Positions 6,278-45,070 of a stretch of DNA of 56,709 nucleotides are shown in pieces. Every line of letters begins with the position of its first letter. Within the stretch, counting starts at the first letter, position 1. A program made the position numbers and the translations under genes. The notes beneath the pieces are model-generated. The model did no database searches. It saw only the letters and a program-made list of their open reading frames with translations, and was not told the DNA's origin. This DNA is from Candidatus Eiseniibacteriota bacterium (GTDB lineage: Bacteria; Eisenbacteria; RBG-16-71-46). The DNA is taken from the NCBI GenBank assembly GCA_016223045.1, contig JACRPT010000048.1, positions 1-56,709 on the forward strand, written 5' to 3'.

Positions 6278-9200
6278 GTGCCGCACTCCCTTGCGAACCG
6301 CCCGCCTCGGGCCCTGTCCGTCGCTCTGCTGGTAGCGCTGGCGTCCGCCGGCACGCGCGCCGCGGCGCCGGACGGCATCACGCTGGCCGAACGGTTCAAC
6401 GAGACCCACGATCCGCCCGCGGTCAGCAGCCGGTCGCTGCCCGATCTCTCGGTGCGGTGGATGACCGGCGTGACGCCGCCGGTCATCAACTCGCAGTGGC
6501 TCATCCCCTACGGGTACGACGCGCTGTTGCATCCACCCGATCCGCACGGGGCGGCAGGTCCGCGGGGCATCATCGCTACCGTGAACCGCAACATCTCCTG
6601 CTACGACAAGCCAGGCAACCCGATCTGGCCCACGCTGGACTTCCAGGTCTTCCTGGCCCCGCTCGGCCCGGCGGAGGGCTCGATGGTGGACCCGCGTGCC
6701 GCCTACGACCCGGGCACGGGGCGCTTCTACGTCATCGAAGCCGAGTACAACGACACGGACACCTACCTCGACATCGCGGTCTCGAAGTCGTCGAACCCGA
6801 CCTCGTCGGGCCCGAGCGATTGGTTCTTCTACCGGGTTCTCACGACCGAGGTCGTGGGCGGCGCACGCTACGGCGGGGACTATCCGGGTCTCGGCTTCGA
6901 TGGGCAGAACTTGTACGTCACCTACAACATGTACTTCATGCCGGGGTTCGCGTTCTTCAAGAACTGCCAGATCATCGTGCTGGACAAGGCTGCCCTGATC
7001 TCGGGCACGGCGATCGCCAGGTCCGTGTTCACGCCGGATGGGTACGGCGCGGGATTCACGCTCCAGCCGGCGACGGTGATCGGGGCTTCGAGTCCAGGCA
7101 GCGTGGCCTACTTCGCGGAGGTGCCCTACTGGGGCACGACGACCGCCGTGCGGATCTGGGCGCTCGCCGATCCGCAGGGCGCGGGGATCCTCACCTCGAC
7201 GACGGTGCCCGCGCCCGACAATGGCGGCCAGGCGGAGGGAGCGCCGCAGTGCGCGCCGGGCACGGTCCTGATCTCCACGTTCAGCCCGCGGGCACAGGGC
7301 AACGCCTTCTGGCACGCCGGGAGCCTGTGGTTCTGCCACACCGCGGGAGGCTCGGCGCTGGGCCGCGGGGTCGTCTACTACTACCGCGTCGCGACCAACG
7401 GCTTCCCCGGCGGATCACCCGGACTCGAGGAGTCGGGCGCGATCGACGGAGGCCCGGGCGTCTGGACGTACCAGCCCGCGGTCGGAGCGAACGCCGACGG
7501 CGATGTCGGACTCGTCTACACGCAATCCTCGGCGACGATCTGCCCCACGATCATGGTGGCCGCGAGGAAGGCGGCGTGGTCCGCCTTCGCGCCACCGCAG
7601 GTCCTGAAGGAGGGGACGTACTACAACGCGACCCGGGACCTGTGGGGCAACATCGCCCGCTGGGGCGACTACGCCACCGTCTCCGGTGATCCGGTGGACA
7701 ACAGCCTGTGGGTGAGTCACGAGTTCGCTCCCGACACGCAGCCCGACCACTGGAGCACGTGGTGGGGGAATATCGTCTTCGATCCCGGCGTGAGCGCCTG
7801 GCAGACCGATGGCGTGCCGCTGCGCGTCAGCACGACGGGCGTGGAAGCGCCCGCGGGCGTCCCCGACCGCGCCGGCGGAGCGATCGTCGCGTGGCGCGAC
7901 GGACGCAACTCGGTCTCGCGGGTGTTCCTGCAGCGCGTCACCGGGAGCGGCGCGAAAGCGCCGGGCTGGCCGGCGAACGGGGTGCCCGCCACCGCGGGCC
8001 TGCGTGACGCGGGCACGCCCGCGCTGGCGCCGGACGATTCGGGCGGGGCGTACGTCGCCTGGGCGATCGTCGGGGGGGCCGACGTCCTGCTCCAGCGCAT
8101 CACGGACTCGGGGACCGTGGCGCCGGGGTGGCCGGCGGATGGGGTTGCCCTGGGTACGCCTGGGGCCAGTCCCGCCATCGTCGCAGACGGGACCGGCGGT
8201 GCGTTCGTGGCGTGGCAGTCGTCCGGGATCAGGCTGGTGCGCGTGCGCTCGACCGGCGCGATCGCTCCGGGCTGGCCGGCGGGTGGACTTGGCCTGGCCT
8301 CCAGCGGTGCTCTCCCGCAGCTCGTGCCGGACGGCGCGGGCGGCGTCATCGTGGCCTGGACCCCGGGACTGCGTCTCCAGCGGGTGTCCGGTGACGGGAT
8401 CGCCCAGTGGCAGTCGGGGGGCGTCAGCCTGGGGCCGGGCGCGAGCCCCAGGATGATCTCCGACGGGCAGGGAGGCGCGGTGCTCGCGTTCCAGAAGTGG
8501 GGCGCGGGCTCCGACCTCTACGCGCTCAGGATCAGCAGCGCGGGCGCGGTCGCCACGGGCTGGGCGGCGGGAGGCGTGGTGCTGTGCGGCGCTCCGTCGG
8601 ACCAGACCGGCCCGGTGCTCGTTCCCGACGGCACCGGAGGCGCCATCGTCGCGTGGAAGGATGCCAGGGACGACCCCGGCGGCGTCCTCGGCGACATCTA
8701 CGCTCTGCGCGTCAACGGGTCAGGTGGCATCCCGCCCGGCTGGCCGGCGAACGGCATGGCGATCTGCGCGGCGGCGGGCGACCAGTCGGCCCCCGCGATC
8801 GCGGCCGACAGTGTCGGCGGCGCCGTGGTTGCCTGGCAGGACGGCCGCGGGAGTCCCGGTTGCACACCACCCGGCTGCGGGGAGGACATCTACTTCCAGC
8901 GCGTGACCGGGCTGGGAACCCGGGATTCCACACTGGCGGCGGACGGGACCGTGGTGTGCACGGCCGCGGGCACCCAGGCGCGTCCCTGTCTGGTGGGCGC
9001 CGCGCGTGGCGCACCCATCGTGGCCTGGGAGGACGGGCGGCTGTTCCCCGACTGCGACCCCGTCTGCGGCAGCGCGGTCTACGCGCAGCAGGTGCGGTTC
9101 GACGCCGTGGCCCCGGCGGCCGCGATCCTCAACGCCCTCACGACCAGCTGCAGCGAGACCACCGTCAGCTGGGTGGCGCCCGGGGACGACGGCATGACCG

Positions 9201-9778
9201 GGCGCGCGGCCGCCTACGACCTGCGCGAATCGTCTCTCCCGATCTCATCCGAGGAGCTGTTCTCGGCCGCCACCCGCGTTCCCACTCCGCCGCCCCACGC
9301 CGCGGGCACGCTGGAGTCCATCACCATTCCCTACGGCGCGTGCAGCGGGCCGAGGTTCTACGCGCTCGTGACCAGGGACGCGGTACCGAACCGGTCCGGG
9401 ATGAGCGTGAGCCCGCACGGCGTGGCGACGCCGTGCCCGCCTCCAGAATGTGACAGCGTCGTGGCTGTCTTCCCGGGGGCGCAGCTCCCGCGCGCCGTCC
9501 ATCTTTCACCGCCGGCACCCAACCCGGCCGCCAGCGAGGTCGTGTTCCGCTTCGGGATCCCGCTGCAGGAGGACGGGACCAGCTTCGAGTTGGGGGTCTA
9601 TGACCTGGCCGGCCGTCTCGTGGCCAGGGTGGACCAGGGGACGAGTGCGGCGGGCTTCCACGCGCGCACGTGGGACCTGCGTTCGGCGGGCGGCGCGCGG
9701 GTGCGCGCGGGCCTCTACTTCGCGCGGCTGAGGCTCGGCCGCCACTCCCTCTCGCGGCCGCTGCTGGTGACACGGTGA
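6278..9778 (+). CDS. large secreted repeat protein with C-terminal FlgD-like/type-A sorting-like domain
   Basis: N-terminal signal peptide; recurrent D(G/S)xGGA(I/F)VAWxDGR and GxxPGWPAxG units; C-terminus SPPAPNPAASEVVFRFGIP...VYDLAGRLVARVDQG...WDLRSAGGARVRAGLYFARLRLG. Confidence 0.8.
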   Translation: MPHSLANRPPRALSVALLVALASAGTRAAAPDGITLAERFNETHDPPAVSSRSLPDLSVRWMTGVTPPVINSQWLIPYGYDALLHPPDPHGAAGPRGIIATVNRNISCYDKPGNPIWPTLDFQVFLAPLGPAEGSMVDPRAAYDPGTGRFYVIEAEYNDTDTYLDIAVSKSSNPTSSGPSDWFFYRVLTTEVVGGARYGGDYPGLGFDGQNLYVTYNMYFMPGFAFFKNCQIIVLDKAALISGTAIARSVFTPDGYGAGFTLQPATVIGASSPGSVAYFAEVPYWGTTTAVRIWALADPQGAGILTSTTVPAPDNGGQAEGAPQCAPGTVLISTFSPRAQGNAFWHAGSLWFCHTAGGSALGRGVVYYYRVATNGFPGGSPGLEESGAIDGGPGVWTYQPAVGANADGDVGLVYTQSSATICPTIMVAARKAAWSAFAPPQVLKEGTYYNATRDLWGNIARWGDYATVSGDPVDNSLWVSHEFAPDTQPDHWSTWWGNIVFDPGVSAWQTDGVPLRVSTTGVEAPAGVPDRAGGAIVAWRDGRNSVSRVFLQRVTGSGAKAPGWPANGVPATAGLRDAGTPALAPDDSGGAYVAWAIVGGADVLLQRITDSGTVAPGWPADGVALGTPGASPAIVADGTGGAFVAWQSSGIRLVRVRSTGAIAPGWPAGGLGLASSGALPQLVPDGAGGVIVAWTPGLRLQRVSGDGIAQWQSGGVSLGPGASPRMISDGQGGAVLAFQKWGAGSDLYALRISSAGAVATGWAAGGVVLCGAPSDQTGPVLVPDGTGGAIVAWKDARDDPGGVLGDIYALRVNGSGGIPPGWPANGMAICAAAGDQSAPAIAADSVGGAVVAWQDGRGSPGCTPPGCGEDIYFQRVTGLGTRDSTLAADGTVVCTAAGTQARPCLVGAARGAPIVAWEDGRLFPDCDPVCGSAVYAQQVRFDAVAPAAAILNALTTSCSETTVSWVAPGDDGMTGRAAAYDLRESSLPISSEELFSAATRVPTPPPHAAGTLESITIPYGACSGPRFYALVTRDAVPNRSGMSVSPHGVATPCPPPECDSVVAVFPGAQLPRAVHLSPPAPNPAASEVVFRFGIPLQEDGTSFELGVYDLAGRLVARVDQGTSAAGFHARTWDLRSAGGARVRAGLYFARLRLGRHSLSRPLLVTR

Positions 9779-9986: not shown

Positions 9987-11714
9987 ATGCGCCGCCGACG
10001 CACCAAACTCGTCGCGACCGCCGCCGCGGCCGTCGCGTTCATCACCCTGCAGCTCGCAAGTCCCACTCCGGCGCGCTGCGCCGATGGCTTCCCGGTGGCC
10101 ACCACCCCCGAGCAGAACGTCCGGCAGGCGATGGTCTGGGATGGGGCCGACGGTGTGCTCGTGAGTTGGCTCCGCAAGATCGACAACTCGTCACGACCGT
10201 GCAGGCTGTACGTGACGAAGCTCGACCGGACGACGGGAGTCCGGATGTGGGATCACGACCTGCTCGTCTCGGACTTCGCGAACGTGAACTCAGCCGTGGC
10301 GATGGCTTCGGATGGCGGCAGGGGCGCCATCGTCGCGTGGGCGGACGCGAACTACGTGCTGTTCGCGCAGCGCGTAAGAGGCTCCGGCGACACCGCGTGG
10401 CCGCGGGCGACCAGGGTGTCCGCGAGCCCATTCCCCACCATCTGGCCGCTCGCGGTCGGGGACGAGGAGGGAGGCGCGATCATCGCGTGGACGGATTTCC
10501 ACAGCTCAGGTTCCGCGAACGTGTACGCGCAGCGGGTGAATCACGGGGGCGCGCTGTACTGGCGCCCCGGTGGAGTGATGCTCGGCTCCACGTCCGGGAT
10601 GGAGGCCGTGGGAGGCGGCAAGAACGAGATGCAGTCCGACGGCGCGGGCGGTGCCATCGTCACCTGGAAGGGCACGCGGAACGGCCTGGCCCAGATCTAC
10701 GCCCAGCGGATCTCGGGCGCGGGCGCCGTTCGCTGGGCGCCCGCCGGTGTGCGCGTCGCGCCGAGCGTGCGCACTCAGCAGCCAGGCACGCTGGTGGCCA
10801 CGCCCGATGGCGGGGCGATCGTGGCGTTCAGTGAGACCGAGACCGCCGAGGGCAGCGACCTCGATCTGCTCGCCGCGGGGCTCGCGCCCGACGGCACCCC
10901 GCGCTGGCCGGGCGGCGCACGGGTGGTGGGCGGCGCGCCCAGGTCGCAGCGCAACGTGGTGGGGCTGTCGGATGGTCTGGGCGGGGCGTTCCTGGCATGG
11001 GACGACTTCCGCCCGCTGAGATCCGGGGGGCTCGCGCTGCCGCACGTGTTCGCCCAGCACCTGGACGCGGACGGGTCGCCGCTGTGGCAGCAGAACGGCG
11101 TGCACATGGGTGGAGCGCCGGCGGGCGGGCTGGAGAGCGCGGCCGCGATCGCGGCGGATGACCGGGGCGGATTCTGGCTGACGTGGGCCGAGATGCAGGA
11201 CCTCGTGCCCGACGCGATCGACATCCGCGCCGGCCGCTTCCTCGCCACCGGGAGGCCGGCCGACGGCATGCCCCGGGGAGGCTTCACGATCTGCGATGAG
11301 GCCGGCAATCAGAGCGCGCCCTTCATCGTGTCCCTGGGCGGGTCGCAGGTGATGCTGGACTGGGTGGACGAGCGCGATGGGAGCGGCGACATCGACCTCT
11401 ATGCCTGGGTCAACCCGACGCCGCGGGTCGTGAGCCCTCTGGCGAAGAGCGGGCACCAGCGCCTTCCGTCTCTGGTCCCGCGCATGCGCGCGGGCGGCCT
11501 GGAGGTGGAGTTCGAGGTGACGGAGCCCGGGTCCGTGACTCTCACGGTGTGCGACCTGCAGGGACGAGCCGTCCGCCGCACGTCCATCGAAGCAGGCCCC
11601 GGCCGTCACACGTTCGCGATCGCCAGGGACGGCCTGCCGGGTGCAGGGATCTACTTCCTGCGGATGGATCAGCGCGGCCAGTCGGTGACCCGGAAGGTGC
11701 TGATCGTTCGCTGA
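9987..11714 (+). CDS. secreted repeat protein related to the preceding gene, FlgD-like C-terminal domain
   Basis: [11 protein letters not shown]; signal peptide MRRRRTKLVATAAAAVAFITLQLASPTPARC; GGRGAIVAWAD, GGAIIAWTD, GAGGAIVTWKGTRN units; C-terminus VTLTVCDLQGRAVRRTSIEAGPGRHTF...GAGIYFLRMDQRGQSVTRKVLIVR. Confidence 0.8.
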   Translation: MRRRRTKLVATAAAAVAFITLQLASPTPARCADGFPVATTPEQNVRQAMVWDGADGVLVSWLRKIDNSSRPCRLYVTKLDRTTGVRMWDHDLLVSDFANVNSAVAMASDGGRGAIVAWADANYVLFAQRVRGSGDTAWPRATRVSASPFPTIWPLAVGDEEGGAIIAWTDFHSSGSANVYAQRVNHGGALYWRPGGVMLGSTSGMEAVGGGKNEMQSDGAGGAIVTWKGTRNGLAQIYAQRISGAGAVRWAPAGVRVAPSVRTQQPGTLVATPDGGAIVAFSETETAEGSDLDLLAAGLAPDGTPRWPGGARVVGGAPRSQRNVVGLSDGLGGAFLAWDDFRPLRSGGLALPHVFAQHLDADGSPLWQQNGVHMGGAPAGGLESAAAIAADDRGGFWLTWAEMQDLVPDAIDIRAGRFLATGRPADGMPRGGFTICDEAGNQSAPFIVSLGGSQVMLDWVDERDGSGDIDLYAWVNPTPRVVSPLAKSGHQRLPSLVPRMRAGGLEVEFEVTEPGSVTLTVCDLQGRAVRRTSIEAGPGRHTFAIARDGLPGAGIYFLRMDQRGQSVTRKVLIVR

Positions 11715-13499: not shown

Positions 13500-14153
13500 A
13501 TGACTGGTTTGGTTCGCAAGGCCACGCTCCTTACGGCGTGTGGGATGCTGGTGGCCGCCGCCGTCATGGCCGGCGTCCCCAGCCCGATCAACTCGACTAA
13601 GCCCAGCTACATCGACGTGGTTGGCACGAACTCGGGCGTGCCGGACCCCTACGGCACCTTCACGATCGTGGTGCGCGATCTCGGCAGCAACCCGATCGCG
13701 AACAGCCAGGTCGTGCTCGACTTCCTCGCCTGCACGGACATGAACCTCTGCGGGGATGCGGTCGCGGGGCAGACCCTCGATTGCCCGACCCGGACGGTGC
13801 GTGGCTTCACCGACGGCACCGGTTCGATCACCTTCACTGTCGTCGGCGCCGCCAAGAACCTGGGCGCGGCGGCGGGTCCGGGGGCTGGCTGCGTCAACAT
13901 TCTGGCCGACGGCGTGAGCCTGATTCATGCGACCGCGACGGAGATTGATGAGAACGGCGCCATCAGCACGAACGGCGTCGAGGTCACCGACCTCTCGGCG
14001 TGGCTGAAGGACCTGGGCACCGGCTTCTACTTCGGCCGCTCGGACTTCAACCATCTGGGCTCGGTGGACATCGTGGACCTGAGCGTGTGGCTGGGTCGCC
14101 TGGGCACCGGCCAGTCGGCTTCGGGCTGCTTGAGCAACATTTACTGCCTGTGA
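13500..14153 (+). CDS. secreted protein with C-terminal dockerin-like duplicated Ca-binding-type repeats
   Basis: SD GGAGGTG; signal peptide; C-terminus IDENGAISTNGVEVTDLSAWLKDLGTG...DFNHLGSVDIVDLSVWLGRLGTG. Confidence 0.7.
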   Translation: MTGLVRKATLLTACGMLVAAAVMAGVPSPINSTKPSYIDVVGTNSGVPDPYGTFTIVVRDLGSNPIANSQVVLDFLACTDMNLCGDAVAGQTLDCPTRTVRGFTDGTGSITFTVVGAAKNLGAAAGPGAGCVNILADGVSLIHATATEIDENGAISTNGVEVTDLSAWLKDLGTGFYFGRSDFNHLGSVDIVDLSVWLGRLGTGQSASGCLSNIYCL

Positions 14154-14301
14154 TGTAGCAGCAAGGGTCGTATGCACCAACCAAGGATCTTCGGCAGCGA
14201 CTAAGATGATTCGGAAGGTGGTGATGGACCGACCCCAAACAGACTCTGAGACGAGAAGCACGGGAAATGCTGTTCCCCCTTACCCCCCTAGTGAGTAGTT
14301 C

Positions 14302-15072
14302 TTGGAGGCAGCAATGAAGAAGACTCTCCTGCTCAGCGGACTTCTCCTCGCTCTCACAGCTTCCATGGCGCTGGCAGCCAGTCCTGGCGGCGGCATCAAC
14401 TTCGCGTGGGGCGCCGGTTGTTGGCCGGAGAACCCGGTCAACCTGAAGACCTTCGCGTGCACCAGCAACACGCTTTCCGGCGCGATCATGACGGGTTCGT
14501 TTGCCCCGTCCATTGACCAGCCGGACTTCGTGGGCATCGAGGTGGTGGTGGATCTGCAGTCCAGTTCGGCCTCGCTCCCGAACTGGTGGCAGTTCTTCAA
14601 CGCCGGCTCGTGCCGCGCGACGGCGCTCTCCACTTCGGCTGATTTCACGGCCGCGCCGCAGATTTCCTGCGTTGACCCGTACCTCGGTCTCGCGGCTGGT
14701 GGCATTGCTGCCTACCAGACCACGACGACCGCGCCGCCGGTGCCGAACGGCCTCCCGAACGCGGCCCGTCTCAAGGTCGCCTACGCTCTGGCGGACCCGA
14801 GCGGTCTGTCTATGGCCACCGAGTACTACGGCTTCAAGGCCACGATGAATGGCACGAAGTCCACGGGCACCGGTGCGTGCGCCGGCTGCTTGACGGCGGT
14901 CTGTATCGTCCTGAACGAGATCAAGTCGGCCGGGAACGCGGGCAGTGTCGCCCGGAACACCACGCCGATGGCGAACACCGCCCTCGGCTGGCAGGCTCGC
15001 GACGCCGTGTACTGCGCCGCTACGCCGACCCACAATGCGACGTGGGGCCAGGTGAAGAGTCTGTACCGGTAG
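14302..15072 (+). CDS. secreted Cys-rich protein, WWQF/TWGQVKSLYR family member 1
   Basis: SD GGAGG; MKKTLLLSGLLLALTASMALA signal; GGGINFAWGAGCWPE...LPNWWQFFNAGSCRATALS...EYYGF...CAGC...LNEIK...NATWGQVKSLYR*. Confidence 0.9.
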   Translation: MEAAMKKTLLLSGLLLALTASMALAASPGGGINFAWGAGCWPENPVNLKTFACTSNTLSGAIMTGSFAPSIDQPDFVGIEVVVDLQSSSASLPNWWQFFNAGSCRATALSTSADFTAAPQISCVDPYLGLAAGGIAAYQTTTTAPPVPNGLPNAARLKVAYALADPSGLSMATEYYGFKATMNGTKSTGTGACAGCLTAVCIVLNEIKSAGNAGSVARNTTPMANTALGWQARDAVYCAATPTHNATWGQVKSLYR

Positions 15073-15095
15073 TCCAGGCAGTAGGCTTCAAGCAG

Positions 15096-15126
15096 CGGGC
15101 GGCCGTCGCCAGACGGTCGCCCGTTT
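15096..15126 (+). terminator. hairpin CGGGCGGCCGTC-GCCA-GACGGTCGCCCG + TTT
   Basis: 12-bp stem with one G-T wobble, T-run, directly downstream of family member 1. Confidence 0.75.
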
Positions 15127-15184
15127 GCCATTCGGCGGGACCGTGCTGCCCGGCCCCCGGCCCGCATCCAGCCCGCGGCCCGCA

Positions 15185-15340
15185 CGGGCCGATTCTCGTC
15201 TTCCCGTCCCCGTCCCCGTCCTCGCCTTCTGGCCCGTCCCTCGTCTTCCTGTCCCGTCCCTCGTCTTCTGGCCCGGCCCCTCGTCCAGGTCCGCCTCCCG
15301 TCGCCCGCTGCTCGTTCCCTCCCGTCTCCCCCGGCGGGAG
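15185..15340. repeat. polypyrimidine (C/T) tract with ~20-bp direct repeats CCCGTCCCTCGTCTTC
   Basis: 16-bp exact copies at 15233-15248 and 15253-15268 inside a strongly C/T-biased stretch. Confidence 0.7.
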
Positions 15341-15674
15341 CGGGGCGGATGCCCCGGCCGCCGGGGCGGCCCGCCCGGCCAGCGACCGCGCCGGTCGCCG
15401 AAAAGTGGTCGCCGGGTCACCATTTCACGTCGGTTCGGGCGGAATCTGCGCTAGAATCAATGCGGCCACGGAAGTGCTCCGTACGGTCGCCCGGTATCAG
15501 GCGGACGGCCGCCGTCACCTTTCGAATGGACCCGACGGGCTGTCCCGGCGGGCCCGCGCATCCTGCGACCCCCAACGACAAGGTGGTGAAGCCGCGAACC
15601 CATTCCAGACCCTTCCGGCTGCTGCGTCCCGCTGGTCCCCCGTTCTTCTCAGACCTCGCATCGTGGAGGCAGTC

Positions 15675-16418
15675 ATGAAGAAGACCCTGCTCATCACCGG
15701 TGCCCTGCTCGCGCTCACGTGTTCGCTCGCGACGGCCGGTGGCATCAACTTCACCTGGGGCCTGGGCTGCTGGCCCGAGACCCCGGCGTCGCTCGAGTTC
15801 TTCGCCTGTGACGTGAACACCGGCAACCACCTGGCGACCGCGTCGTTCGTCGTCAGCGCGAGCCAGCCCACCTTCGTGGGCATCGAGGCGGTCGTGGACA
15901 TCCAGGCCGCGTCGCCGGCGCTCCCCGACTGGTGGCAGTTCTCCAACCCCGGCTCGTGCCGTCAGACCTCGCTGTCGGTGTCTGCGGACTTCACGGCGGC
16001 TCCGAACATCATCTGCGTGGATCCGTGGATGGGTCTGGCCGCCGGCGGCATCGCGGCCTACCAGACCGTGACCACCGTGCCTGCCGTGCCGAGCGGCCTG
16101 CCGAACTCCGCCCGTCTCAAGCTGGCCGAGGCGCTGGCCGATCCCCCGCCCGGTGGCATCCTGGCGGGTCCCGAGTACTACGGCTTCCGCATGACCATCA
16201 ACAACGCGAAGACCGTGGGCGCGACCGTGTGCGCGGGCTGCGCGGTCCCGGTGTGCCTCGCTCTCAACGAGATCAAGGCTGCGCCGCGCTTCGGCATCGC
16301 CGAGCGGATCGCCACCCCGATGGCGAATCAGCTGCTGTCGTGGAACGGCGGTTCGGACTGCGGCGCCACCGCGACGCAGAACAAGACCTGGGGCCAGGTC
16401 AAGAGCCTGTACCGGTAG
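15675..16418 (+). CDS. secreted Cys-rich protein, WWQF/TWGQVKSLYR family member 2
   Basis: SD GGAGG; MKKTLLITGALLALTCSLATAGGINFTWGLGCWPE...LPDWWQFSNPGSCRQT...EYYGF...CAGC...LNEIK...NKTWGQVKSLYR*. Confidence 0.9.
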   Translation: MKKTLLITGALLALTCSLATAGGINFTWGLGCWPETPASLEFFACDVNTGNHLATASFVVSASQPTFVGIEAVVDIQAASPALPDWWQFSNPGSCRQTSLSVSADFTAAPNIICVDPWMGLAAGGIAAYQTVTTVPAVPSGLPNSARLKLAEALADPPPGGILAGPEYYGFRMTINNAKTVGATVCAGCAVPVCLALNEIKAAPRFGIAERIATPMANQLLSWNGGSDCGATATQNKTWGQVKSLYR

Positions 16419-16440
16419 CCCGATCACGAGAGAGGTTGCG

Positions 16441-16475
16441 CGGGCGGCCGTCGCGAGACGGCCGCCCGTCGCTTT
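16441..16475 (+). terminator. perfect 12-bp hairpin CGGGCGGCCGTC-GCGA-GACGGCCGCCCG then GTCGCTTT
   Basis: Perfect inverted repeat with GNRA tetraloop directly downstream of family member 2. Confidence 0.75.
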
Positions 16476-16509
16476 GCCCGCCGCGCGCGCTCGGCTAGAA
16501 TGCCGCGCG

Positions 16510-17250
16510 ATGAGAACCCTGCTCCTGGCCTTCCTGCTCGCTTTCGCGGCGGCGCCCGCCCTGGCCGCGGAGGGGCTCTGGCTCACCTGGGACGAGTGCG
16601 TGCTCGACCCCGCCGCGCCCCACAACCGGAACAGCCCCTGCCTCGGAAACGTGAACGGACAGGACCTCTACTGTGCGTTCCAGATGCCGTTCCCGGTGGA
16701 TAGCGTGCTGGGTGTGGACATTGTGGTGGACGTCCAGCACGGGAGCCCGGTGCTGCCGAGCTGGTGGCAGTTCGCCCCCGACAGTTGCCGCGCCGGGCAG
16801 TTGCGCGTGAGCTTCGACTTCAGCACCAGCTCCTTCTGCACCGATTTCTGGTTCGGCAACGGCGTGGGGGGGCTGCAGGGCTACTACCAGGGCGAGCCGC
16901 GCGGCGGGGCAAACCAGGCGCGCATCAAGATCGCCGGCGCGGTCCTGCCGGGGTTCGGCTACCGGCAGCTCACCGCCGCCGATGTCTACTACGCAGCGAA
17001 GCTCACCATCACCAACGCCCATACCGTGGATCCGGGCGGCTGCCCGGGCTGCATCAATCCCGCCTGTCTGGTGCTGAACTCGATCGCCATCCGCCGCCAG
17101 CCCGGCGCCCCGGGCGGCGACGTGTTCCTGCAGGGGCCGGGGCCCGGCAACGGCAACTTCGCGACCTGGCAGGGCGGGAGCGGGGCCGACTGCACGGCCG
17201 TGCCCGTGCGCTCCATGACCTGGGGCCGGGTCAAGAGCCTCTACCGGTGA
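16510..17250 (+). CDS. secreted Cys-rich protein, WWQF/TWGQVKSLYR family member 3
   Basis: MRTLLLAFLLAFAAAPALA signal; VLPSWWQFAPDSCRAGQLRVSFDF...CPGC...LNSI...SMTWGRVKSLYR*. Confidence 0.88.
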   Translation: MRTLLLAFLLAFAAAPALAAEGLWLTWDECVLDPAAPHNRNSPCLGNVNGQDLYCAFQMPFPVDSVLGVDIVVDVQHGSPVLPSWWQFAPDSCRAGQLRVSFDFSTSSFCTDFWFGNGVGGLQGYYQGEPRGGANQARIKIAGAVLPGFGYRQLTAADVYYAAKLTITNAHTVDPGGCPGCINPACLVLNSIAIRRQPGAPGGDVFLQGPGPGNGNFATWQGGSGADCTAVPVRSMTWGRVKSLYR

Positions 17251-18334: not shown

Positions 18335-20161
18335 TCAGTCGAGCACCGGGTCCACGAGCCTGATGCGCATCACCAGCTCGGGGTGGACCTCGATGGCGCA
18401 GTCCTTCCGGTGGCGCGCGAGCAGCTCCTTGAGCAGCTTCTCGGCCTGGATGTTCTGCAGGGATTCGTCCACCAGCGACTCGACCTCCTCGTACGGGAGC
18501 TGGTGCCCCGGGTCGTAGGTCAGCAGCTGGAGCGCCATGTAGTCGCCCTGCCGGTCGGGCCCCACGATCGAGACCTGTCCCGGCTTCATCTCCTCGAACA
18601 GCGCCTTCTGGTAGGCGCCGTGCTCGTCCTCGCGTCGCTCCTGGATCGCGCCCGAGCGCATCCCCGCGAGCGAGTCGGCGCGCAGCACGGCCGCCGCGTC
18701 CTCGCCCTGGCGCAGCCGCTCCGCCAGCGAGTCGGCCGCCGCCCTGGTGGAGCGCACGATCGCCGCGAAGCGCACCTTGCGCCAGGAGAAGAACTCGCGC
18801 AGCCGCGATTCGTAGTACTGGTGCCGCTCCGCTGCCGAGATCCAGATCTTCGACTGCACCGAGTCCTGGAACAGGTGCTCCACCAGGAGCTCTTCGCGCT
18901 TCCGCTCGATGAGCCCGACCGCGAGCGGGTCCCGGTCGAGCCTGCGCTCCAGGGCGAGCTTCGCGGTCCAGGGTTCCAGCACGAACCCGTCGAGCGCCGA
19001 GCGGAACGCGTCGAAGCTGTTCACGTTCATGCGCTGCGGCACCGGGATGGCCCTGTAGGTGTCGAGGAAGAGCCCGAGCGTGAAGCTGCCGCCGTTCCAC
19101 CGCGCCAGCATCCGCGCGGTGTCGGCCGGCGCGAACTCGGGCATCGCGCCCGAGATGTCGATGACCTGCTTGCCCTCCTCGTCGGTGCGCATCGGCGCGG
19201 TCTCGCCGAACAGGCGCGAGGCCCAGGCGATGTTGGTGCTGTCGTAGGTCATGCCGATGCGCGCGCGCAGCATCGAGCGCATCGCCTCGACGCGCTTCGC
19301 GATCGCGGCGGGCGCCAGGTCGCTCACGATGCTCGAGCGCACGGTCTCGAGCGGCGGCGCGCTGGCCGGGCGCCGGTCGGCCACGCGCACCAGCTGGTAG
19401 CCTTCACGGTCCTCGAACACCTGCGAGTACTGGCCCGGCGCGAGGTCGTAGATGCCGAGCGCCACCTGCGGGTCGAACGCGTTGCGCACCATCCAGCCCA
19501 GCTCGCCGTCCGGGCCGCGGTCCTGCTTCGCGATCGAGTGCTTCTTCACCGCTTCGGACCAGGTGATCCGGCCCGCGGCGAGGTCGGCGCGCAGGCGCTC
19601 GATCAGGGCGCGGTCGTGGCTCACCAGGTGCTGGAGCCGGAGCTGGAACCGGCGCTGCGCGTAGGCGTGCTGGATCTCCTGCTCCGAGGGCTGCGCCGAG
19701 TCGGCCACCAGCCGCTGGAACGCCACGTTCGAGAGCACGCGCTGGGTGTGCTCGCGCAGCGTCGCGCGGTCCTCGAAGTCGAGCGGCCGGTCGGCGGCGA
19801 GCGCGGTGTGCGCCAGCACCTCCTTGTTCACCATGCTGTTCAGGAACTCGACGCGGCCCGCACTGTCCGGCCGGGGCCGGTACTCCGCGTACGACGAGAA
19901 CCAGGCCTCGCGGAACTGGCGCACCGTGAAGCGGCGGTCGTTCACGCGCCCGAGGAACGCGGAGTCGGGCAGGAACTGCCCGGTGTCCGGCACTCCGTCC
20001 ACGTATGTCGCCGGCCTGCCCTGGTAGAGGAGCGGCGCCTGCGTCGGCGGCGGGGCAGGCAGCGGCTTCGAAGGCTTCCACGGCTGCGGCGCGGGTCCGG
20101 CGGCGAGCGCGACGGACCCCAGCAGCAGGAGCCCGAGCGGAGCGAGCAGGCGAAGCTTCAT
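18335..20161 (-). CDS. periplasmic PpiC/SurA/PrsA-type peptidyl-prolyl isomerase
   Basis: Signal peptide MKLRLLAPLGLLLLGSVALA; EVLAHTALAADRPLD, RFQLRLQHLVSHDRALIERLRADLAAGRITWSEAVKKHSIAKQDRGPDGELGWMVRNAFDPQVALGIYDLAPGQYSQVFEDREGYQLVRV. Confidence 0.85.
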   Translation of the reverse strand: MKLRLLAPLGLLLLGSVALAAGPAPQPWKPSKPLPAPPPTQAPLLYQGRPATYVDGVPDTGQFLPDSAFLGRVNDRRFTVRQFREAWFSSYAEYRPRPDSAGRVEFLNSMVNKEVLAHTALAADRPLDFEDRATLREHTQRVLSNVAFQRLVADSAQPSEQEIQHAYAQRRFQLRLQHLVSHDRALIERLRADLAAGRITWSEAVKKHSIAKQDRGPDGELGWMVRNAFDPQVALGIYDLAPGQYSQVFEDREGYQLVRVADRRPASAPPLETVRSSIVSDLAPAAIAKRVEAMRSMLRARIGMTYDSTNIAWASRLFGETAPMRTDEEGKQVIDISGAMPEFAPADTARMLARWNGGSFTLGLFLDTYRAIPVPQRMNVNSFDAFRSALDGFVLEPWTAKLALERRLDRDPLAVGLIERKREELLVEHLFQDSVQSKIWISAAERHQYYESRLREFFSWRKVRFAAIVRSTRAAADSLAERLRQGEDAAAVLRADSLAGMRSGAIQERREDEHGAYQKALFEEMKPGQVSIVGPDRQGDYMALQLLTYDPGHQLPYEEVESLVDESLQNIQAEKLLKELLARHRKDCAIEVHPELVMRIRLVDPVLD

Positions 20162-20330: not shown

Positions 20331-21758
20331 CTAGTTCCCTCGCGCTCCGCCCAGCTTCGCCAGCGCCGCCTGGTTGATGGCGACCGGCGTGGCCGCGCGC
20401 AGGCTGTCCACCAGCGCGCGCATCAGCCGCTCGCCCTCCTCGCCGTACCAGCTGTGGTGCACCAGGTCGCGCACCTCGTCGAACGACCGCCGGCGGCCCG
20501 GCATCACCGCCACCACGCGCCAGACCTCCCAGCCGTCCTCGACCGGGTCGGGGCCCAGCACTGCGCCGGTGCCGGCGCGCATCGCCCGCGCGAACAGCGC
20601 GCTGTCGGAAGCCGCGCTCACCTCGTAGGCGAGGCTCGCGCCTCCGCGCCGCGAGACCGCCTCCAGGCTCTCGGCCTCGCCGGCCGCGCGCAGTCGCACG
20701 GCCAGCGCCGATGCCTCGCCGCGGTCCCCCAGCACGATGCCAAGGACCTTCACGCGCAGCGGCAGCGTCCAGTCGTCCTGGCGGGCGCGGAAGTGCTTCA
20801 GCAGCGTCAGCGAGTCGGTGGCGATCCGGGCGTAGACCTCGCGGGCCACCAGGTGCGAGACGTCGTTGTACTCGCGCAGGTTCGCGAGCGCCGCCGCAAT
20901 GTCGGCGCGGTGCTCCAGCCCGCGCCGCTCAGCGTCGCGGCGCAGCATGCGCTCGAACAGCCCGTTCTTCACCAGGTCGCGCACCTGCGAGCCGCTCTCG
21001 ATGCGCGGGCGATAGAGCGGGTTCAGCCGGCGCCACGCCTCCAGCAGCCCGGCCACGCGGTAGTCGCCCTCGTCCGAGCGGGCCACCACCTTCGCCGTGT
21101 CGGCCGGGTCCACCGCGGGCATGGCGCCCATGGCGCGCAGCTGCGCGAACATCGAGGAGTCGCGCGACGGCCGGGGGATCGCGCCCCACGCCTGCGCCAG
21201 CTTCGCCAGCAGCGCCTCCTCGTAGCGGACGTGCAGGCGCGTCATGGCGCTGTCGCGCGCCACGATGCCGAGCGCCTGCTGGTCGAGGCTGTCGCCGCGG
21301 GGGCCCAGCCCGCGGCGCGTGGCGGTGAGCGCCGAGTCCAGCATGGTCTGGATCACCAGCCGGTCGCGCTGCCCCTGGTACTCGGCGCTCTCACGCGCCG
21401 TCCAAATCCAGCGCTCGCGGCCGGCCGCCTCGCCCAGGGCCTCCTTGGAGACCAGAAGTTCGAGAAACCCCCGTGCGCCCTCCGGGGTAAGGGAATCGGG
21501 TCGCGCAGGGGGGGCGACCTGATCCCAGGCCTTTCGGAACCGGGAGACGGTGATCTCGCGGCGGCTCCCCACGACGGCCAGCACGGAGTCGGGCAGGGGC
21601 CCCCGCACCGTCGCTGCGGTCGAGGCCGCCCGGGCCGGCATGGGACGGCCCGGTGCGAGCCTCGCCCGCGCCGGCGCGGCCAGCGGGGTCGCCATCAGCA
21701 GCACCAGTGTCCAGGACGCGCATCGTCGCGGTGCGCGGGCTCGCGTGCAGCGGTCCAT
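20331..21758 (-). CDS. periplasmic SurA-like foldase/PPIase-domain protein
   Basis: Signal-like N-terminus; VVGSRREITVSRFRKAWDQV...LELLVSKEALGEAAGRE; C-terminal VLGPDPVEDGWEVWRVVAVMPGRRRSFDEVRDLVHHSW resembles parvulin-type modules. Confidence 0.6.
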   Translation of the reverse strand: MDRCTRARAPRRCASWTLVLLMATPLAAPARARLAPGRPMPARAASTAATVRGPLPDSVLAVVGSRREITVSRFRKAWDQVAPPARPDSLTPEGARGFLELLVSKEALGEAAGRERWIWTARESAEYQGQRDRLVIQTMLDSALTATRRGLGPRGDSLDQQALGIVARDSAMTRLHVRYEEALLAKLAQAWGAIPRPSRDSSMFAQLRAMGAMPAVDPADTAKVVARSDEGDYRVAGLLEAWRRLNPLYRPRIESGSQVRDLVKNGLFERMLRRDAERRGLEHRADIAAALANLREYNDVSHLVAREVYARIATDSLTLLKHFRARQDDWTLPLRVKVLGIVLGDRGEASALAVRLRAAGEAESLEAVSRRGGASLAYEVSAASDSALFARAMRAGTGAVLGPDPVEDGWEVWRVVAVMPGRRRSFDEVRDLVHHSWYGEEGERLMRALVDSLRAATPVAINQAALAKLGGARGN

Positions 21759-21907: not shown

Positions 21908-24900
21908 ATGCGCCCCACCCAGAGCCTCCTCAGGGCCACGGTCCTTCTCCTCGCGCTGCTTCCGGCGCTCCCGGCCCGCGCCCAGCCGGTCCGCCTGCTC
22001 GCTTCCGACGCCCGCGGCGTCACCCTGCGGGTGGACGCTTCGGCGTTCGCGCTGTCGGCGCCCGAGGCCGAGGACCGGGTGCGGCTGCTGGTGCCGGGGT
22101 TCCGCGCCGCCAGCGAGCCCGGGCGCCCGCAGCTCCCGTTCGCGCAGGCGCTGCTGGCGCTGCCGCCGGGCGCCACCGCGCGCGCGCGCGTCACCGGCGG
22201 CGAGGCGGAAGAGGAGCGCGCGAACGTGAGGCTCGCGATCGGACCGCGGCCGGCGTTCGTGGACGACCCGGGCGGGCTCGGACCCACCCCGTCGCTCGAG
22301 GCGGTCGCGCCGCTGGCCGACGGGCCGTGGCCGGCCGCGCCGGTCGCGGTGGGCGAGCCGTTCACCCTGCGCGGCCAGCGCGTGGTCGCGGTCCAGGTGT
22401 GGCCGTTCCGCGCCGACGAGGCCTCGTCCCGGCTCTGGATCCGGCGTTCCCTCGTGGTGCGCGTGGACTTCGCCGGCGGCGCCGAGCCCGCGCTCGCCGC
22501 GCCGGCCGAGGACCGGCACTGGGAGCCGGTGTTCGAGAGCGCGCTCCTCAACTACGAGCAGGGCCGGCGCTGGCGCGAGCCGGCGGCCGGGCCCGCGGCG
22601 GGCCTTAGCCTGTTCCGCGGCACGGCGCTCGACCGCGCGGCGCTACCGGCCGGGATCGCCGCGAGCGCGGCGTTCGACGAGAGCGAGCCCGAGGTGCGGG
22701 TGCGCGTGGATACCACCGGCGTCTGGGGGCTCGATTACGATGCGCTGGCGGCGCAGGGCTATCCCGCCGGCGTGCCGGTCGCGGAGGTGAGCCTGCACCG
22801 GCACGAATTCGTGCAGGGCGCCACGCCGCCCTACGTCACGCTCGAGCTGCCCATCGAGGTGGACGACGCCAACGGCAACGGCGTGTTCGACTCGGGTGAC
22901 CGCATCCTGGCGTTCGTGCGCAGCTGGGCCGAGCGCTCGGGTGCCTCGCTGCCGCAGCGCGAGTGGGGCGACGGCGAGGTGGTCTACGCCACGCGCCTGC
23001 GCGGCGGCGCGGGGCTGCGGCTGCCGCTGCGGCCGGGCTGGAGGAACGCCAGCGTCACGCCGCTCGCTTCGTACCCCTGGCGGCAGCGCTGGGAGCGCAG
23101 CTTCGGCTACTACGGGTTTCCCAACGACACCACGACCTACGACCGGTTCCTGTGGACTCCCTACACCAAGTCCTACTACTACCGGCCGGACACCATCCGC
23201 TTCGAGACCAACCACCTCGACACCTCGCGCACCGTCACCTTCCGGGGGAACTGGGAGGGGATCAGCAGCAGCACGCACTTCATCTGGGCGCAGGTGAAGA
23301 ACGCCTCCTCGCAGTTCACCAGCGTCGCCGACTCGGTGCTCTGGTTCGCCAAGGACCCGGTGACGGTCACCACCGTGCTCCACGGCTCGGCGCTCAGCGA
23401 GGGGAACACCAACACCTTCCGTGACTGGGGCAAGAACTCCGCGAGCCCGCCCGATCCCAACACGAACGGCTACGTGAGCGCCGGCCTCAACTGGTTCGAG
23501 GCCACCTACTGGCGGAGCTTCCGGGCGCTGCGGGGCTACCTCGACCTGAACAGCGCCGACGCCGCGGACGTGTTCCAGGTGCACGCCCTGGGCTTCGCCA
23601 CGGACCTGATCCGCGTCTACGACGTCACCGACCCCGCGAATCCCGCGCGGGTGCAGGTGGACCCCGCGCGGATCGGGCCCGACGGGAGCGGCGGCTACGC
23701 GGTGGACTTCCAGGACTCGACCGGCGCGGGCCAGCCGCGGTGCTACTTCGCCTTCGACACGCCGAAGAGCGTGCCGGGCGCGCTGGTCACGGCCGTCACG
23801 CGCCGCCGCCTCGAGGACAACCTGGCGGCCGACTACCTGCTGGTGGTGCCCGAGGAGTTCCTGCCCGCGGTGGACCCGCTGGTGAACCTGCGGCGCGCGC
23901 AGGGGCTCTCGGTGCTGGTCGCGCCGCTCGAGTCGGTGAACGACGAGTTCAACGGCGGGCGCCGCTCGAAGTGGGCGATCAAGCGCCTGGTGCGCTACGC
24001 CTACGAGCACTGGCAGAGCCGCTTCCTCATGCTGGTGGGCGACGGCAGCGAGGACGGGCGGCACCTCCTGAACGGCTCGGGGACGGACTGGATCCCCGCC
24101 CCGGTCATCCGCGGTCCGGTCGCGGTGGCCGAGGGGCTCGAGATCATCCCCTCCGACCCGTGGTACGGCTGGTGCCTGAACGACGATCCCAACTGCTACC
24201 TCCAGCCGCTGCTGATCCCGCAGGTGTTCGTGGGACGGCTCCCCGCGAACAGCCTGCAGCAGGCCACCGACATGATCTCCAAGATCGTGGCGAACGAGAG
24301 CTTCGCGGCCGACCAGGTGTGGCGGCGCCGCATGGTGCTGCTGGCGGACGATGCCTACTCGGGGGTCAGCACCTTCGGTGGCGGGGGCGGCGGGGGCAGC
24401 AACAACTACTGCTACCACAACTACGAGCTGAGGTTCCGCACGCTCAACGAGGCGATCAGGCGCGTGGTGCTGGACGAAGCCGGGCTCCAGCAGTGCTTCC
24501 CGGAGGTCATGGACCTGCGCTCGTACCTGACCACGCCCGCGCTCTACATCGTGAACGGCCCCGGCGACACCTGCCGCACCGGCGCGCAGACCGGCACTCC
24601 GAATGCCGAGAGCCTCCTGCGCGCGGCGTTTAACCCCGCGCTGTTCAGCCGGCTCAATGGCGGCGTGACGTGGTGGAACTACCAGGGCCACGCCAACCAG
24701 TACATCCTGTCTCACGAGGGTTTCTACCGGAACCAGGACGGCAACCAGGACCGCGACAACCTGATGAACGACGGGAAGCCCTTCCTGTTCTCGGCGTTCT
24801 CCTGCCACGTGAACGGCTTCGCGGTGGCGCACGAGGCCGACCCCTCGCTCGGACCCGCGGTGGGCGAGAACCTGATGACGCTCGCGAACCGCGGCGCGGT

Positions 24901-26143
24901 GGCGAGCTGGGCCTCGAGCGGCTTCGAGGTGGTGCCGCAGAACCCCGACTACCACCTCAACGTCGAGCTGGCGCGCGCGCTGTTCTCGGATCCGCCGCAC
25001 GACCGCTACCTGGGCGATGCCGGCGCGCGCGTGGTGCTGGGCGAGGTCATAGGGCTCACGTTGCTCAACTACCTGCCCACGGTCTCGGGTTCCTCGTACG
25101 AGCGCGGCGTGGGGCTCACCTACAACCTGCTCGGCGACCCGGCCACGCAGGTCTCGATCGGCCCGCCGCAGGTCCTGGTCACCGCGAATGGACAGGCGGT
25201 GGTGAGCGGCCAGCCGGTGCGGCTCGGCAGCTCGGGCGACACGCTGCGGATCGAGGCCGACCTGGCTTCCAACACGCAGTTGAAGAGCCTCGCGTTCACC
25301 GCCACCGACGGCACGGGCACCTTCCCCGTGCCCGACACCGCGTACACGCTCACCCCCGCGTTCCCCGACACCGGCGCGGGGCGCTCGGGCGGGCGGCGCT
25401 TCCACCTGGTGTACCGCACCTCGCTGCGCACCGGCAGCTTCGCGTACGCGTTGCGCACCGTGGACCGCTACGACGTGGCGACCCAGTTCGACATCGTGTT
25501 CCAGTTCGAGACCCTGCTGCAGGACGAGGGCCGGCCGCTGCGCGCCGGCGACCCGGTGGCGCCCGGCGCGCGCTTGACCGTGCTCGTGCTCTCGCCGGGC
25601 GCGCTCGACCCGCAGGCCGACCTGGCGCTCACGGTGGACGGGCAGGTGCAGAGCTTCACCGCCACGCCGGCGCGCGGCGACCAGAGCGGGCGGCAGTGGC
25701 TGCTCGCCTGGGACCACGCGGCCTACGCGGCGGGCGCGCACACCGCGGGACTGAGCCTGCGCGGCGCCGCACCGATCCTGATGAGCTTCTCGGTGGCGTC
25801 GGGCATCCGGCTGGCGGACGCGATGGCCTTCCCCAACCCGTTCGAGGACGAGCTGGGGACGCGCTTCAGCTTCATGCTCCAGAGCGACGCGCCGGCCGAC
25901 CTGCTGATGCGGGTGTACACTGCGTCGGGCCGCCTGGCCTACGAGCGCGTGGAACGTGGGCTGCTCCCCGGCTACCACCAGTTGCCGTGGGACGGGCGCG
26001 ACGCGGAGGGGGCGAAGCTTGCGAACGGGATCTACTTCTACCGCCTGGTGGCGAAGAGCGCGACGGGCTCCACGACCTACGAAGGCCGGCTGGTCAAGCT
26101 GCGCAAGCCGCGGCGCGTCGCCGAGGTCACGCCCGCGCCCTGA
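21908..26143 (+). CDS. C25 gingipain/PorU-like cysteine peptidase with C-terminal FlgD-like sorting domain
   Basis: YLLVVPEEFLPAVDPLVNLRRAQGLSVLVAPLESVNDEFNGG...KRLVRYAYEHWQSRFLMLVGDGSED; candidate His in WWNYQGHANQ and Cys in FLFSAFSCHVNGF; C-terminal AFPNPFEDELGTRFSFMLQ...GRLAYERVERGLLPGYHQLPWDGRDAEGAKLANGIYFYRLVAK. Confidence 0.85.
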   Translation: MRPTQSLLRATVLLLALLPALPARAQPVRLLASDARGVTLRVDASAFALSAPEAEDRVRLLVPGFRAASEPGRPQLPFAQALLALPPGATARARVTGGEAEEERANVRLAIGPRPAFVDDPGGLGPTPSLEAVAPLADGPWPAAPVAVGEPFTLRGQRVVAVQVWPFRADEASSRLWIRRSLVVRVDFAGGAEPALAAPAEDRHWEPVFESALLNYEQGRRWREPAAGPAAGLSLFRGTALDRAALPAGIAASAAFDESEPEVRVRVDTTGVWGLDYDALAAQGYPAGVPVAEVSLHRHEFVQGATPPYVTLELPIEVDDANGNGVFDSGDRILAFVRSWAERSGASLPQREWGDGEVVYATRLRGGAGLRLPLRPGWRNASVTPLASYPWRQRWERSFGYYGFPNDTTTYDRFLWTPYTKSYYYRPDTIRFETNHLDTSRTVTFRGNWEGISSSTHFIWAQVKNASSQFTSVADSVLWFAKDPVTVTTVLHGSALSEGNTNTFRDWGKNSASPPDPNTNGYVSAGLNWFEATYWRSFRALRGYLDLNSADAADVFQVHALGFATDLIRVYDVTDPANPARVQVDPARIGPDGSGGYAVDFQDSTGAGQPRCYFAFDTPKSVPGALVTAVTRRRLEDNLAADYLLVVPEEFLPAVDPLVNLRRAQGLSVLVAPLESVNDEFNGGRRSKWAIKRLVRYAYEHWQSRFLMLVGDGSEDGRHLLNGSGTDWIPAPVIRGPVAVAEGLEIIPSDPWYGWCLNDDPNCYLQPLLIPQVFVGRLPANSLQQATDMISKIVANESFAADQVWRRRMVLLADDAYSGVSTFGGGGGGGSNNYCYHNYELRFRTLNEAIRRVVLDEAGLQQCFPEVMDLRSYLTTPALYIVNGPGDTCRTGAQTGTPNAESLLRAAFNPALFSRLNGGVTWWNYQGHANQYILSHEGFYRNQDGNQDRDNLMNDGKPFLFSAFSCHVNGFAVAHEADPSLGPAVGENLMTLANRGAVASWASSGFEVVPQNPDYHLNVELARALFSDPPHDRYLGDAGARVVLGEVIGLTLLNYLPTVSGSSYERGVGLTYNLLGDPATQVSIGPPQVLVTANGQAVVSGQPVRLGSSGDTLRIEADLASNTQLKSLAFTATDGTGTFPVPDTAYTLTPAFPDTGAGRSGGRRFHLVYRTSLRTGSFAYALRTVDRYDVATQFDIVFQFETLLQDEGRPLRAGDPVAPGARLTVLVLSPGALDPQADLALTVDGQVQSFTATPARGDQSGRQWLLAWDHAAYAAGAHTAGLSLRGAAPILMSFSVASGIRLADAMAFPNPFEDELGTRFSFMLQSDAPADLLMRVYTASGRLAYERVERGLLPGYHQLPWDGRDAEGAKLANGIYFYRLVAKSATGSTTYEGRLVKLRKPRRVAEVTPAP

Positions 26144-31991: not shown

Positions 31992-32181
31992 GCGTTCGTG
32001 ATCCCTCTCGGGGGCGCAACCGACGGTGGGGGAATCTAGCACGGACGCCTCCATCGGTCCCCTCCGTGATGCACCCGGGGCGGGCGCAGGGGCGGCGTGG
32101 TGGATGGTCGGATGCGGGCGCGGGCAGGGGCTGCTCGCGCTCGAAGGCGGTCAGGCGCCGCGCGCGAGCGGGCGCCTCCCC

Positions 32182-32826: not shown

Positions 32827-32974
32827 CGGGTCCTCCTCTCCTGGTCGCCCACCATCCTCCGGGAGCCAGGGGCGGACCTCCGGTGACACGAGCTTGCGCC
32901 TCCGGGGAAATGGCATCAAGCGCCGCGCGGGGTTCTTTGCACACTCTTGACCGCCCGGGGCGTCTGCGTCCGGC

Positions 32975-40686: not shown

Positions 40687-41786
<1,100 letters not shown>

Positions 41787-43526: not shown

Positions 43527-44312
43527 ATGGATGTCGCCTTGAAACCCCTCATCGCAGGCGTGGCCACGTTGCTGTCGCTCGCGGGCGCCGGTCCCGGCCT
43601 GGCGGGCGGGATCAACCTGGCCTGGGACCAGTGCTGGCCCGAGGGCGGGACGAGCAACAGGCGCTTCGCGTGCGACACGAACGCCGGCTACCAGCAGATC
43701 GTAGGGTCGTTCGCGCCGTTCGAGGCTCACCCCAACTTCGTGGGCACGGAGATCATCATGGATGTCGTCTCGCTCACGAGCGCGCTGCCGGACTGGTGGC
43801 AGTTCTTCAATCCCGGCTCCTGCCGGAGGACCGCGCTCTCGGCCTCCGCCGACTTCGCGCAGTCTCCTCAGACCTCCTGCGTGGACCCATGGCAGGGGCG
43901 GGCGGCAGGGGGCATCGCGGCGTACCAGACCAGCACCTCCGTGCCGCCGGTCCCGAACGGCCTTCCCAATGCGGCGCGACTGAAGGTGGCGTTCGCCCTC
44001 GAGTTCCCCGAGTCGCTCGGCGCCGAGGCCGAGTACTACGGCTTCCGTCTCTCGATCTCGAACGCGAAGACCTTCGGCGACAGCGCCTGCGGCGGTTGCG
44101 AGAGCAACGTCTGCATCCTGCTGACCGAGATCAAGGTGGCGGACTCCGGCGGGTTCCAGGAGCGGCTCTGGTCGTGGCTCGCGAACGGCGCGGTGACGTG
44201 GGAGTGCGCGAGCTGGTGGTGGGGAGAGTGGGCCACCTGCTATGCGACACCCGGCTGCACCGTGGCCGCGCGCAACGCCACCTGGGGCCAGGTGAAGAGC
44301 CTCTACCGATGA
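43527..44312 (+). CDS. secreted Cys-rich protein, WWQF/TWGQVKSLYR family member 4
   Basis: GGINLAWDQCWPEGG...LPDWWQFFNPGSCRRTALSASADF...GGIAAYQT...EYYGF...CGGC...NATWGQVKSLYR*. Confidence 0.9.
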   Translation: MDVALKPLIAGVATLLSLAGAGPGLAGGINLAWDQCWPEGGTSNRRFACDTNAGYQQIVGSFAPFEAHPNFVGTEIIMDVVSLTSALPDWWQFFNPGSCRRTALSASADFAQSPQTSCVDPWQGRAAGGIAAYQTSTSVPPVPNGLPNAARLKVAFALEFPESLGAEAEYYGFRLSISNAKTFGDSACGGCESNVCILLTEIKVADSGGFQERLWSWLANGAVTWECASWWWGEWATCYATPGCTVAARNATWGQVKSLYR

Positions 44313-45070
44313 CGCGGCGGGAACCAACGCCAGTGAGGTGGGCGGGGGCAGCCGCGATCGCCTGCTGTCTTGCCGTGATGCTGGCCTCGACCTGCTGGGC
44401 CGGCGGCGTCAACTTCGCGTGGAACGGGTGCCTGCCCGAGGGCGGCGTATCGAGCCTGAGCTCTCAGTGCAGCGGGAACACCGGATCGATCGAGGCGGTC
44501 GGCTCGTTCGTGGTGTCGCAGCCGCGGCCCGCGTTCGTCGGCAACGAGATCGCGATCGACATCCAGGCCGACGCCTCGGCGCTCCCCGACTGGTGGCAGT
44601 ACTTCAACGACCGCGCGTGCCGCGCCACCGCGCTCTCGGCGTCCTTCGACTTCAGGGGCGCCCCGCAGACCTCGTGCACGGATCCGTTCTCGGGGCTGGC
44701 GATGGGCGGGCTCGCCGCCTACCAGACCGCGCAGACCTACCCGGCCGTGCCGAGCGGTGCCCCGAACGCGGCGCGCCTCGTGCTCGGCGTCGCGGTGGCG
44801 ACCCCGAGCCCGCTCTCGGCGGGGGTCGAGTACTACTGCTTCCGGCTGCGCATCACCATGCAGCGGACCACCGGCGGCGGCGCCTGCGCGGGCTGCACGG
44901 TCCCGGTCTGCCTGACGCTCAACGAGATCAGGGCCGCGGAAAACACCGGTCCGGTGGAGCGGCTCACGAACGCGCTCCAGAGCAGCATGATCTCCTGGCA
45001 GGAGGCGTCGGGGTGCCAGTCGGCGGTCAAGAACCGGACCTGGGGGCAGGTCAAGAACCTTTACCGTTGA
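44309..45070 (+). CDS. secreted Cys-rich protein, WWQF/TWGQVKSLYR family member 5
   Basis: ATGA overlap with member 4; GGVNFAWNGCLPEGG...LPDWWQYFNDRACRATALSASFDF...EYYCF...CAGC...LNEIR...NRTWGQVKNLYR*. Confidence 0.9.
   Translation: MTRREPTPVRWAGAAAIACCLAVMLASTCWAGGVNFAWNGCLPEGGVSSLSSQCSGNTGSIEAVGSFVVSQPRPAFVGNEIAIDIQADASALPDWWQYFNDRACRATALSASFDFRGAPQTSCTDPFSGLAMGGLAAYQTAQTYPAVPSGAPNAARLVLGVAVATPSPLSAGVEYYCFRLRITMQRTTGGGACAGCTVPVCLTLNEIRAAENTGPVERLTNALQSSMISWQEASGCQSAVKNRTWGQVKNLYR

Follow-up and report, generated by a model that had tools for sequence, protein, structure and literature searches.

The window analysed here, a stretch of 56,709 nucleotides from a Candidatus Eiseniibacteriota bacterium (contig JACRPT010000048.1, assembly GCA_016223045.1), encodes five paralogous secreted proteins, called WWQF proteins, all of which end TWG[QR]VK[SN]LYR. 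Judged from sequence, this ending (the tag) is not part of the WWQF family at all, but a separate, phylum-wide element, and a more surprising one than the family. It is very probably a functional C-terminal signal. A more specific reading, held here with about as much belief as doubt, makes the tag an ultrashort sorting signal for export linked to the type IX secretion system (T9SS), the most likely route. About 40 kinds of small exported protein, the WWQF proteins among them, probably share this undescribed address label for the cell surface.

C-terminal tags are, of course, known to define whole export systems; PEP-CTERM, GlyGly-CTERM, MYXO-CTERM and the C-terminal domain (CTD) of the T9SS are examples. 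PEP-CTERM was discovered from short C-terminal homology on unrelated exported proteins, combined with the phylogenetic profile of a partner (PMC1569441). Here, the tag predicts several hundred exported proteins in an uncultured phylum, and a candidate reader makes both annotation and function testable. If the T9SS does read the tag, this bears on the minimal recognition made by the translocon, and offers a possible small display tag. It would also be, to our knowledge, the shortest natural T9SS signal.

In the window, the tag (17 residues, located here with the stop codon, always on the + strand) lies at 15019..15072 in paralogue 1, 16365..16418 in paralogue 2 and 44259..44312 in paralogue 4, each ending TWGQVKSLYR; at 17197..17250 in paralogue 3, ending TWGRVKSLYR; and at 45017..45070 in paralogue 5, ending TWGQVKNLYR. 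Its consensus, taken from one protein per body cluster (n=41), is [PA]T[PA][TVA]xxx[ST]WGx[ILV]KxL[YF]R-COOH. Written as a degenerate DNA pattern, WGxxKxL[YF]R-stop matches 25 times in the genome and its reverse 0 times, and a 25-column profile recovers about 35 tagged proteins at E below 0.05. Across 47 genomes of the phylum, 39 of them positive, a strict DNA motif gives 344 matches against 2 in the reversed control.

Proteins were called in 80 stretches around tags from 14 genomes, together with the window, using a simple codon-based gene finder, some of whose calls are wrong. Among the resulting 868 proteins the motif occurs 83 times, in 83 of 83 cases at the C-terminus and never internally in 319,109 amino acids; about 0.0005 C-terminal occurrences are expected by composition. 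The W and the G, like the residue class at the last positions, come from the search pattern itself, while the positions free of it hold S or T at -10 in 41 of 41 clusters, K rather than R at -5 again in all 41, and T at -16 in 28; I, L or V at -6 is conserved as well, though outside the pattern. These residues are conserved while their codons vary freely. A crude hydrophobicity scan predicts an N-terminal Sec signal on 74 of the 83 proteins. The tag is in no model library searched, and the literature searched contains neither a description of it nor a report that connects Eisenbacteria to the T9SS or to sorting by C-terminal signals.

The bodies that bear the tag differ greatly. BLAST at E<1e-5 sorts the 83 into 42 clusters, some of which, such as the lamin-tail domain (LTD) proteins, remote homology could merge. 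Pfam, run on 61 tagged proteins, finds LTD (10), NHL, CBM_20, CHRD, beta-helix, Copper-bind, cohesin and others. Plastocyanin is among the bodies too. In the genome of the window, the matches of the DNA pattern include propellers of the NHL and SMP-30-like types as well as proteins with lamin-tail, CBM20-like or other domains, none with homology to WWQF. The median length of tagged proteins is 245 amino acids, against 688 for CTD proteins.

Some single cases deserve mention. In the genome of the window, near-identical tagged genes lie at contig ends (L020/L029 and L026/L028), which suggests recent duplications that broke the assembly. Four of the nine WWQF copies in another genome, G020 (L166:9802-13720), end in KSQYR or KAQYR, a variant of the tag. 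A CHRD protein at L047:1130-1693 (JAPUJU010000374.1) ends TTWGRVKSLYRAEAR, perhaps a tag outside the named phylum.

The connection to type IX secretion comes from several comparisons. The T9SS is widespread in the 47 genomes, with the PF18962 type A CTD in 47, SprA_N in 39 and PorV_fam in 47 (6-15 copies each). Tag and CTD are never joined on the same protein (0 among the 868); a local CTD profile matches 0 of the 83 tagged proteins, and TIGR04183/PF18962 is absent for the 61 scanned, among the 25 of 35 NCBIfam families listed. The genes lie close together: of the 132 genes directly next to tagged ones, 23 are CTD genes (17.4%), vs 16 of 358 (4.5%) at rank 3-5 (Fisher p=1.4e-5). Related bodies may have either ending, as in the cohesin-like neighbours L219:7403-7963 (tag) and 8022-8816 (CTD), and in the cysteine-rich repeats of L164, L221 and L222. 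Tags close with a hydrophobic-hydrophobic-basic triplet, as do 33 of 62 CTDs but only 19 of 723 other proteins. The invariant K at -5 and the LYR end resemble CTD motif E/C-t, with the register off by one. The end of the CTD is important to the working of the T9SS; in HBP35 the signal was mapped to the 22 residues at the C-terminus, and in type A CTDs a conserved lysine makes contact with PorV (PMC11285876, PMC10994853). The short CTDs of Prevotella intermedia, 40-55 amino acids long, have the cleavage consensus PT/GI (PMC11969387); we infer, and only infer, that the conserved Thr/Pro block before the tag may recall it.

The tag shares with the type A CTD (TIGR04183/PF18962, read by PorV) its place at the C-terminus of varied, Sec-exported bodies, its genomes and its neighbouring genes, and its final triplet resembles that of the CTD. 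It differs in size (about 17 residues vs about 70-100), in lacking the immunoglobulin-like, seven-stranded fold with motifs B and D, in escaping CTD profiles, and in never sharing a protein with a CTD. Prevotella intermedia offers a precedent for a shortened signal beside long ones in one genome, with a PT-rich consensus near the cleavage site and a conserved basic residue near the end (PMC11969387). The type B CTD, with its PorP/SprF shuttle, likewise shows a signal class having its own dedicated shuttle; it is, however, 150-235 amino acids long, and the candidate shuttle here is PorV-like (PMC12618676). PEP-CTERM, GlyGly-CTERM and MYXO-CTERM, which likewise came to light through comparative genomics, also place one short homology region on many unrelated exported proteins of a genome. 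Each of these combines its motif with a transmembrane helix and basic tail, whereas the tag lacks a hydrophobic helix and is not known to have a sortase as partner: such a helix with basic tail is absent in all tag sequences read, and no CTERM sorting model matches at the tag among the 25 of 35 NCBIfam families listed.

On the T9SS reading, Sec would deliver the tagged protein to the periplasm, where the tag would be recognised. The T9SS translocon would then pass the protein to the surface, with the tag taking the place of the larger type A CTD, and PorU-like peptidases may cleave at the conserved Thr/Pro linker. The candidate reader is PorV-W, a shuttle of the PorV family whose gene adjoins that of a TonB-receptor-like outer-membrane protein.

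In a tree built from 84 proteins of the PorV family in ten genomes, PorV-W is one clade (support 1.0). Six tag-rich genomes and G018 have a single member each, and three tag-less genomes of family f11 have none; with about a dozen PorV clades inspected, and f11 being a single lineage, this pattern alone is weak. In 30 other genomes, a profile of the clade scores at least 358 bits in 18, and at paralogue level or not at all in 12 (G012, G025, G035, G036, G037, G009 and six f11 genomes). The neighbouring TonB-receptor-like gene, searched in all 47 genomes, agrees with PorV-W; G035 has such a gene at a contig end. Strict tags number 1-25 in the 33 genomes with the module and 0-8 in the 14 without (p=5e-7, kinship not corrected for). 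PorV-W scores 168 bits against NF033709, over the cut-off of 90, and is thus a member of the PorV/PorQ family, but only 54.6 bits against the PorV orthologue model NF033710 (cut-off 250). In G012, which is without the module, tag-like ends (L372, L386) keep WGxIK and have lost LYR. The module itself, at L317:1385-12226 (G000:C143), encodes the TonB-receptor-like protein, PorV-W, a propeller lipoprotein, a CTD protein, a lipoprotein and another CTD protein. It is conserved in several families of the phylum, and has the look of a duplicated core PorV locus.

Several facts weigh against both the T9SS reading and its proposed reader. The support is purely comparative. Adjacency of tagged and CTD genes could reflect a general clustering of genes for exported proteins, and a few tagged proteins resemble lipoproteins. 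The tag has neither CTD motif B nor D (G, GxY); even the Prevotella intermedia short CTDs, with their 40-55 residues, form a three-stranded sheet and carry motifs B, D and E (PMC11969387), while the tag is far shorter and shows a likeness to the end motif only. The T9SS is kept where tags are almost absent (family f11), leaving the correlation of tag with T9SS weak. As for the module, it was not found in G036 (87% complete), which has 22 matches at the level of the tag profile (a hidden Markov model), nor in G009 (69% complete), which has 10; G018 has the module and only 4 tags; and some f11 genomes (L375, L376, L385), otherwise almost free of tags, keep a WG tag on a single LTD protein. Because of these exceptions, PorV-W is rejected as the obligatory or only reader, and is therefore treated as a lead; that it is the main reader is a tentative suggestion from sequence comparison. 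Similarly tentative is the fullest form of the proposal, in which the tag would be a new class of T9SS signal, about 17 residues long and having no folded domain, for which a dedicated PorV-type shuttle would act as reader together with its adjacent TonB-receptor-like outer-membrane protein, the tandem WWQF arrays being one heavily amplified cargo.

Two further lines of argument were set aside. Plain co-occurrence of the tag with the T9SS core was dropped, as tag-poor genomes have the T9SS too. A processing gene recurring beside tagged genes was also sought; the clusters within 1-2 genes are mostly housekeeping genes or conserved synteny.

The strongest rival accepts that the tag sorts proteins, but through a machine other than the T9SS: a receptor or protease, in the periplasm or the outer membrane, by which these small proteins would be retained or anchored. 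This would account for the missing motifs B and D, for cargo much smaller than that of CTDs, and for tag-poor genomes that keep the T9SS. Further, the CHRD, NHL (ScyF-like) and LTD (ExeM-like) cargo resembles proteins that elsewhere carry PEP-CTERM or GlyGly-CTERM. It would not lead one to expect tagged genes to adjoin CTD genes and a PorU-like gene, nor the CTD-like last three residues, the profile of the PorV clade, or the alternation of tag and CTD on related bodies. We consider it possible, if somewhat doubtful.

Rather improbable is the view that the tail is a peptide for periplasmic retention, chaperone docking or protease recognition, on proteins that are not exposed at the surface. The WWQF array does adjoin two PpiC-type isomerases, and the tail is predicted to be unstructured, as a docking peptide would be. 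The cargo, however, looks extracellular (cohesin, CBM20, LTD, beta-helix), and the T9SS associations tell against this view.

That the tail is without function, a relic of common descent or a mobile 3' end of genes, gains something from the recent duplication of some tagged genes; it is nonetheless very improbable, and already strained, given some 40 unrelated bodies, residue conservation with free codon variation, and phylum-wide spread, since W, G, K, L and R would not persist in unrelated genes if the tail were neutral. Least credible of all is that only a lineage-specific family of secreted cysteine-rich proteins is involved, its C-terminus part of its own fold: the family is real and expanded, but this reading is already refuted by the same C-terminus on proteins without WWQF homology.

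The family was the subject of an earlier note on the window, which had described five secreted paralogues; this observation is confirmed, and the interpretation first given to it is partly supported. All five open reading frames exist, on the + strand, at 14314..15072 (paralogue 1, 252 amino acids), 15675..16418 (paralogue 2, 247), 16510..17250 (paralogue 3, 246), 43527..44312 (paralogue 4, 261) and 44309..45070 (paralogue 5, 253; start uncertain, 44309 or 44378). They are homologous along their length, with a mean column identity of 59% (34-62% vs paralogue 1), and hold the conserved blocks that had been listed, the first of which is indeed divergent and degenerate in paralogue 3 (EGLWLTWDECVLD). 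The common C-terminus, taken as a trait of the family, is present in all five; as seen above, it does not belong to the family alone. Paralogue 1 had been started at TTG 14302; the ATG at 14314, immediately 3' of a GGAGG, is the more likely start. Of the good Shine-Dalgarno and promoter signals proposed, the GGAGG stands 5' of genes 1 and 2, but none is found at gene 3, and the one promoter-like match is weak.

The family was rightly called undescribed, secreted and tandem-amplified. Its body has no Pfam or NCBIfam model over the curated cut-off and no sequence match in the PDB, and its identification with a known domain is accordingly rejected. It occurs in 20 of the 47 genomes, all within one GTDB family (f1) and often in tandem arrays; a scan of 84,980 species genomes names full-length relatives in Candidatus Eisenbacteria only, and no phage relatives were found. 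The tandem array is real, but two loci are too few, as this genome has 17 matches, at least 15 of them full-length and one a fragment (C101). Because the proteins have eight to ten cysteines each and a signal peptide, the sequences suggest disulfide-bonded exported proteins. A structural or carbohydrate-binding role, and high abundance, find no support here.

Structure prediction had been proposed as a check for a novel beta-sandwich. The AlphaFold models are beta-rich, but of low confidence (mean predicted local distance difference test, pLDDT, 50-56; tail 23-45), and Foldseek finds no match for them with E<=0.001. The fold is therefore not used here.

The array stands in a conserved neighbourhood. 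A small secreted protein without a family match (13545..14153, +) precedes it in three genomes; two PpiC-type peptidyl-prolyl isomerases, the first SurA-like, follow at 18335..20161 and 20331..21641 (both -). Next comes a C25 peptidase with propeptide and FlgD_ig, resembling the T9SS sortase PorU (21908..26143, +), whose C25 domain and propeptide are found and whose NF033707 score is 188 bits, under the cut-off of 420. G020 and G021, which have 9 and 4 WWQF copies respectively, show this gene order as well, and array and PorU-like gene are neighbours in three genomes of two genera. Elsewhere in the window, all on the + strand, are an exported protein whose C-terminal FlgD_ig/T9SS type A-like domain contrasts with the tag (6278..9778), and two with a type A CTD, one over the TIGR04183 cut-off (9987..11714), the other directly 3' of tagged paralogue 5 (45200..48025).

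Other genes of the window encode more familiar functions. A nucleoside phosphorylase, an ABC ATPase and a Bmp/PnrA-like binding protein (31140-33880, 40687-43334 and 48880-49917) likely serve nucleoside uptake and use. Pfam identifies the large and small subunits of a [NiFe] hydrogenase at 34449-36516, and a glycogen debranching enzyme (GDE_N, GDE_C) lies at 53565-55619.

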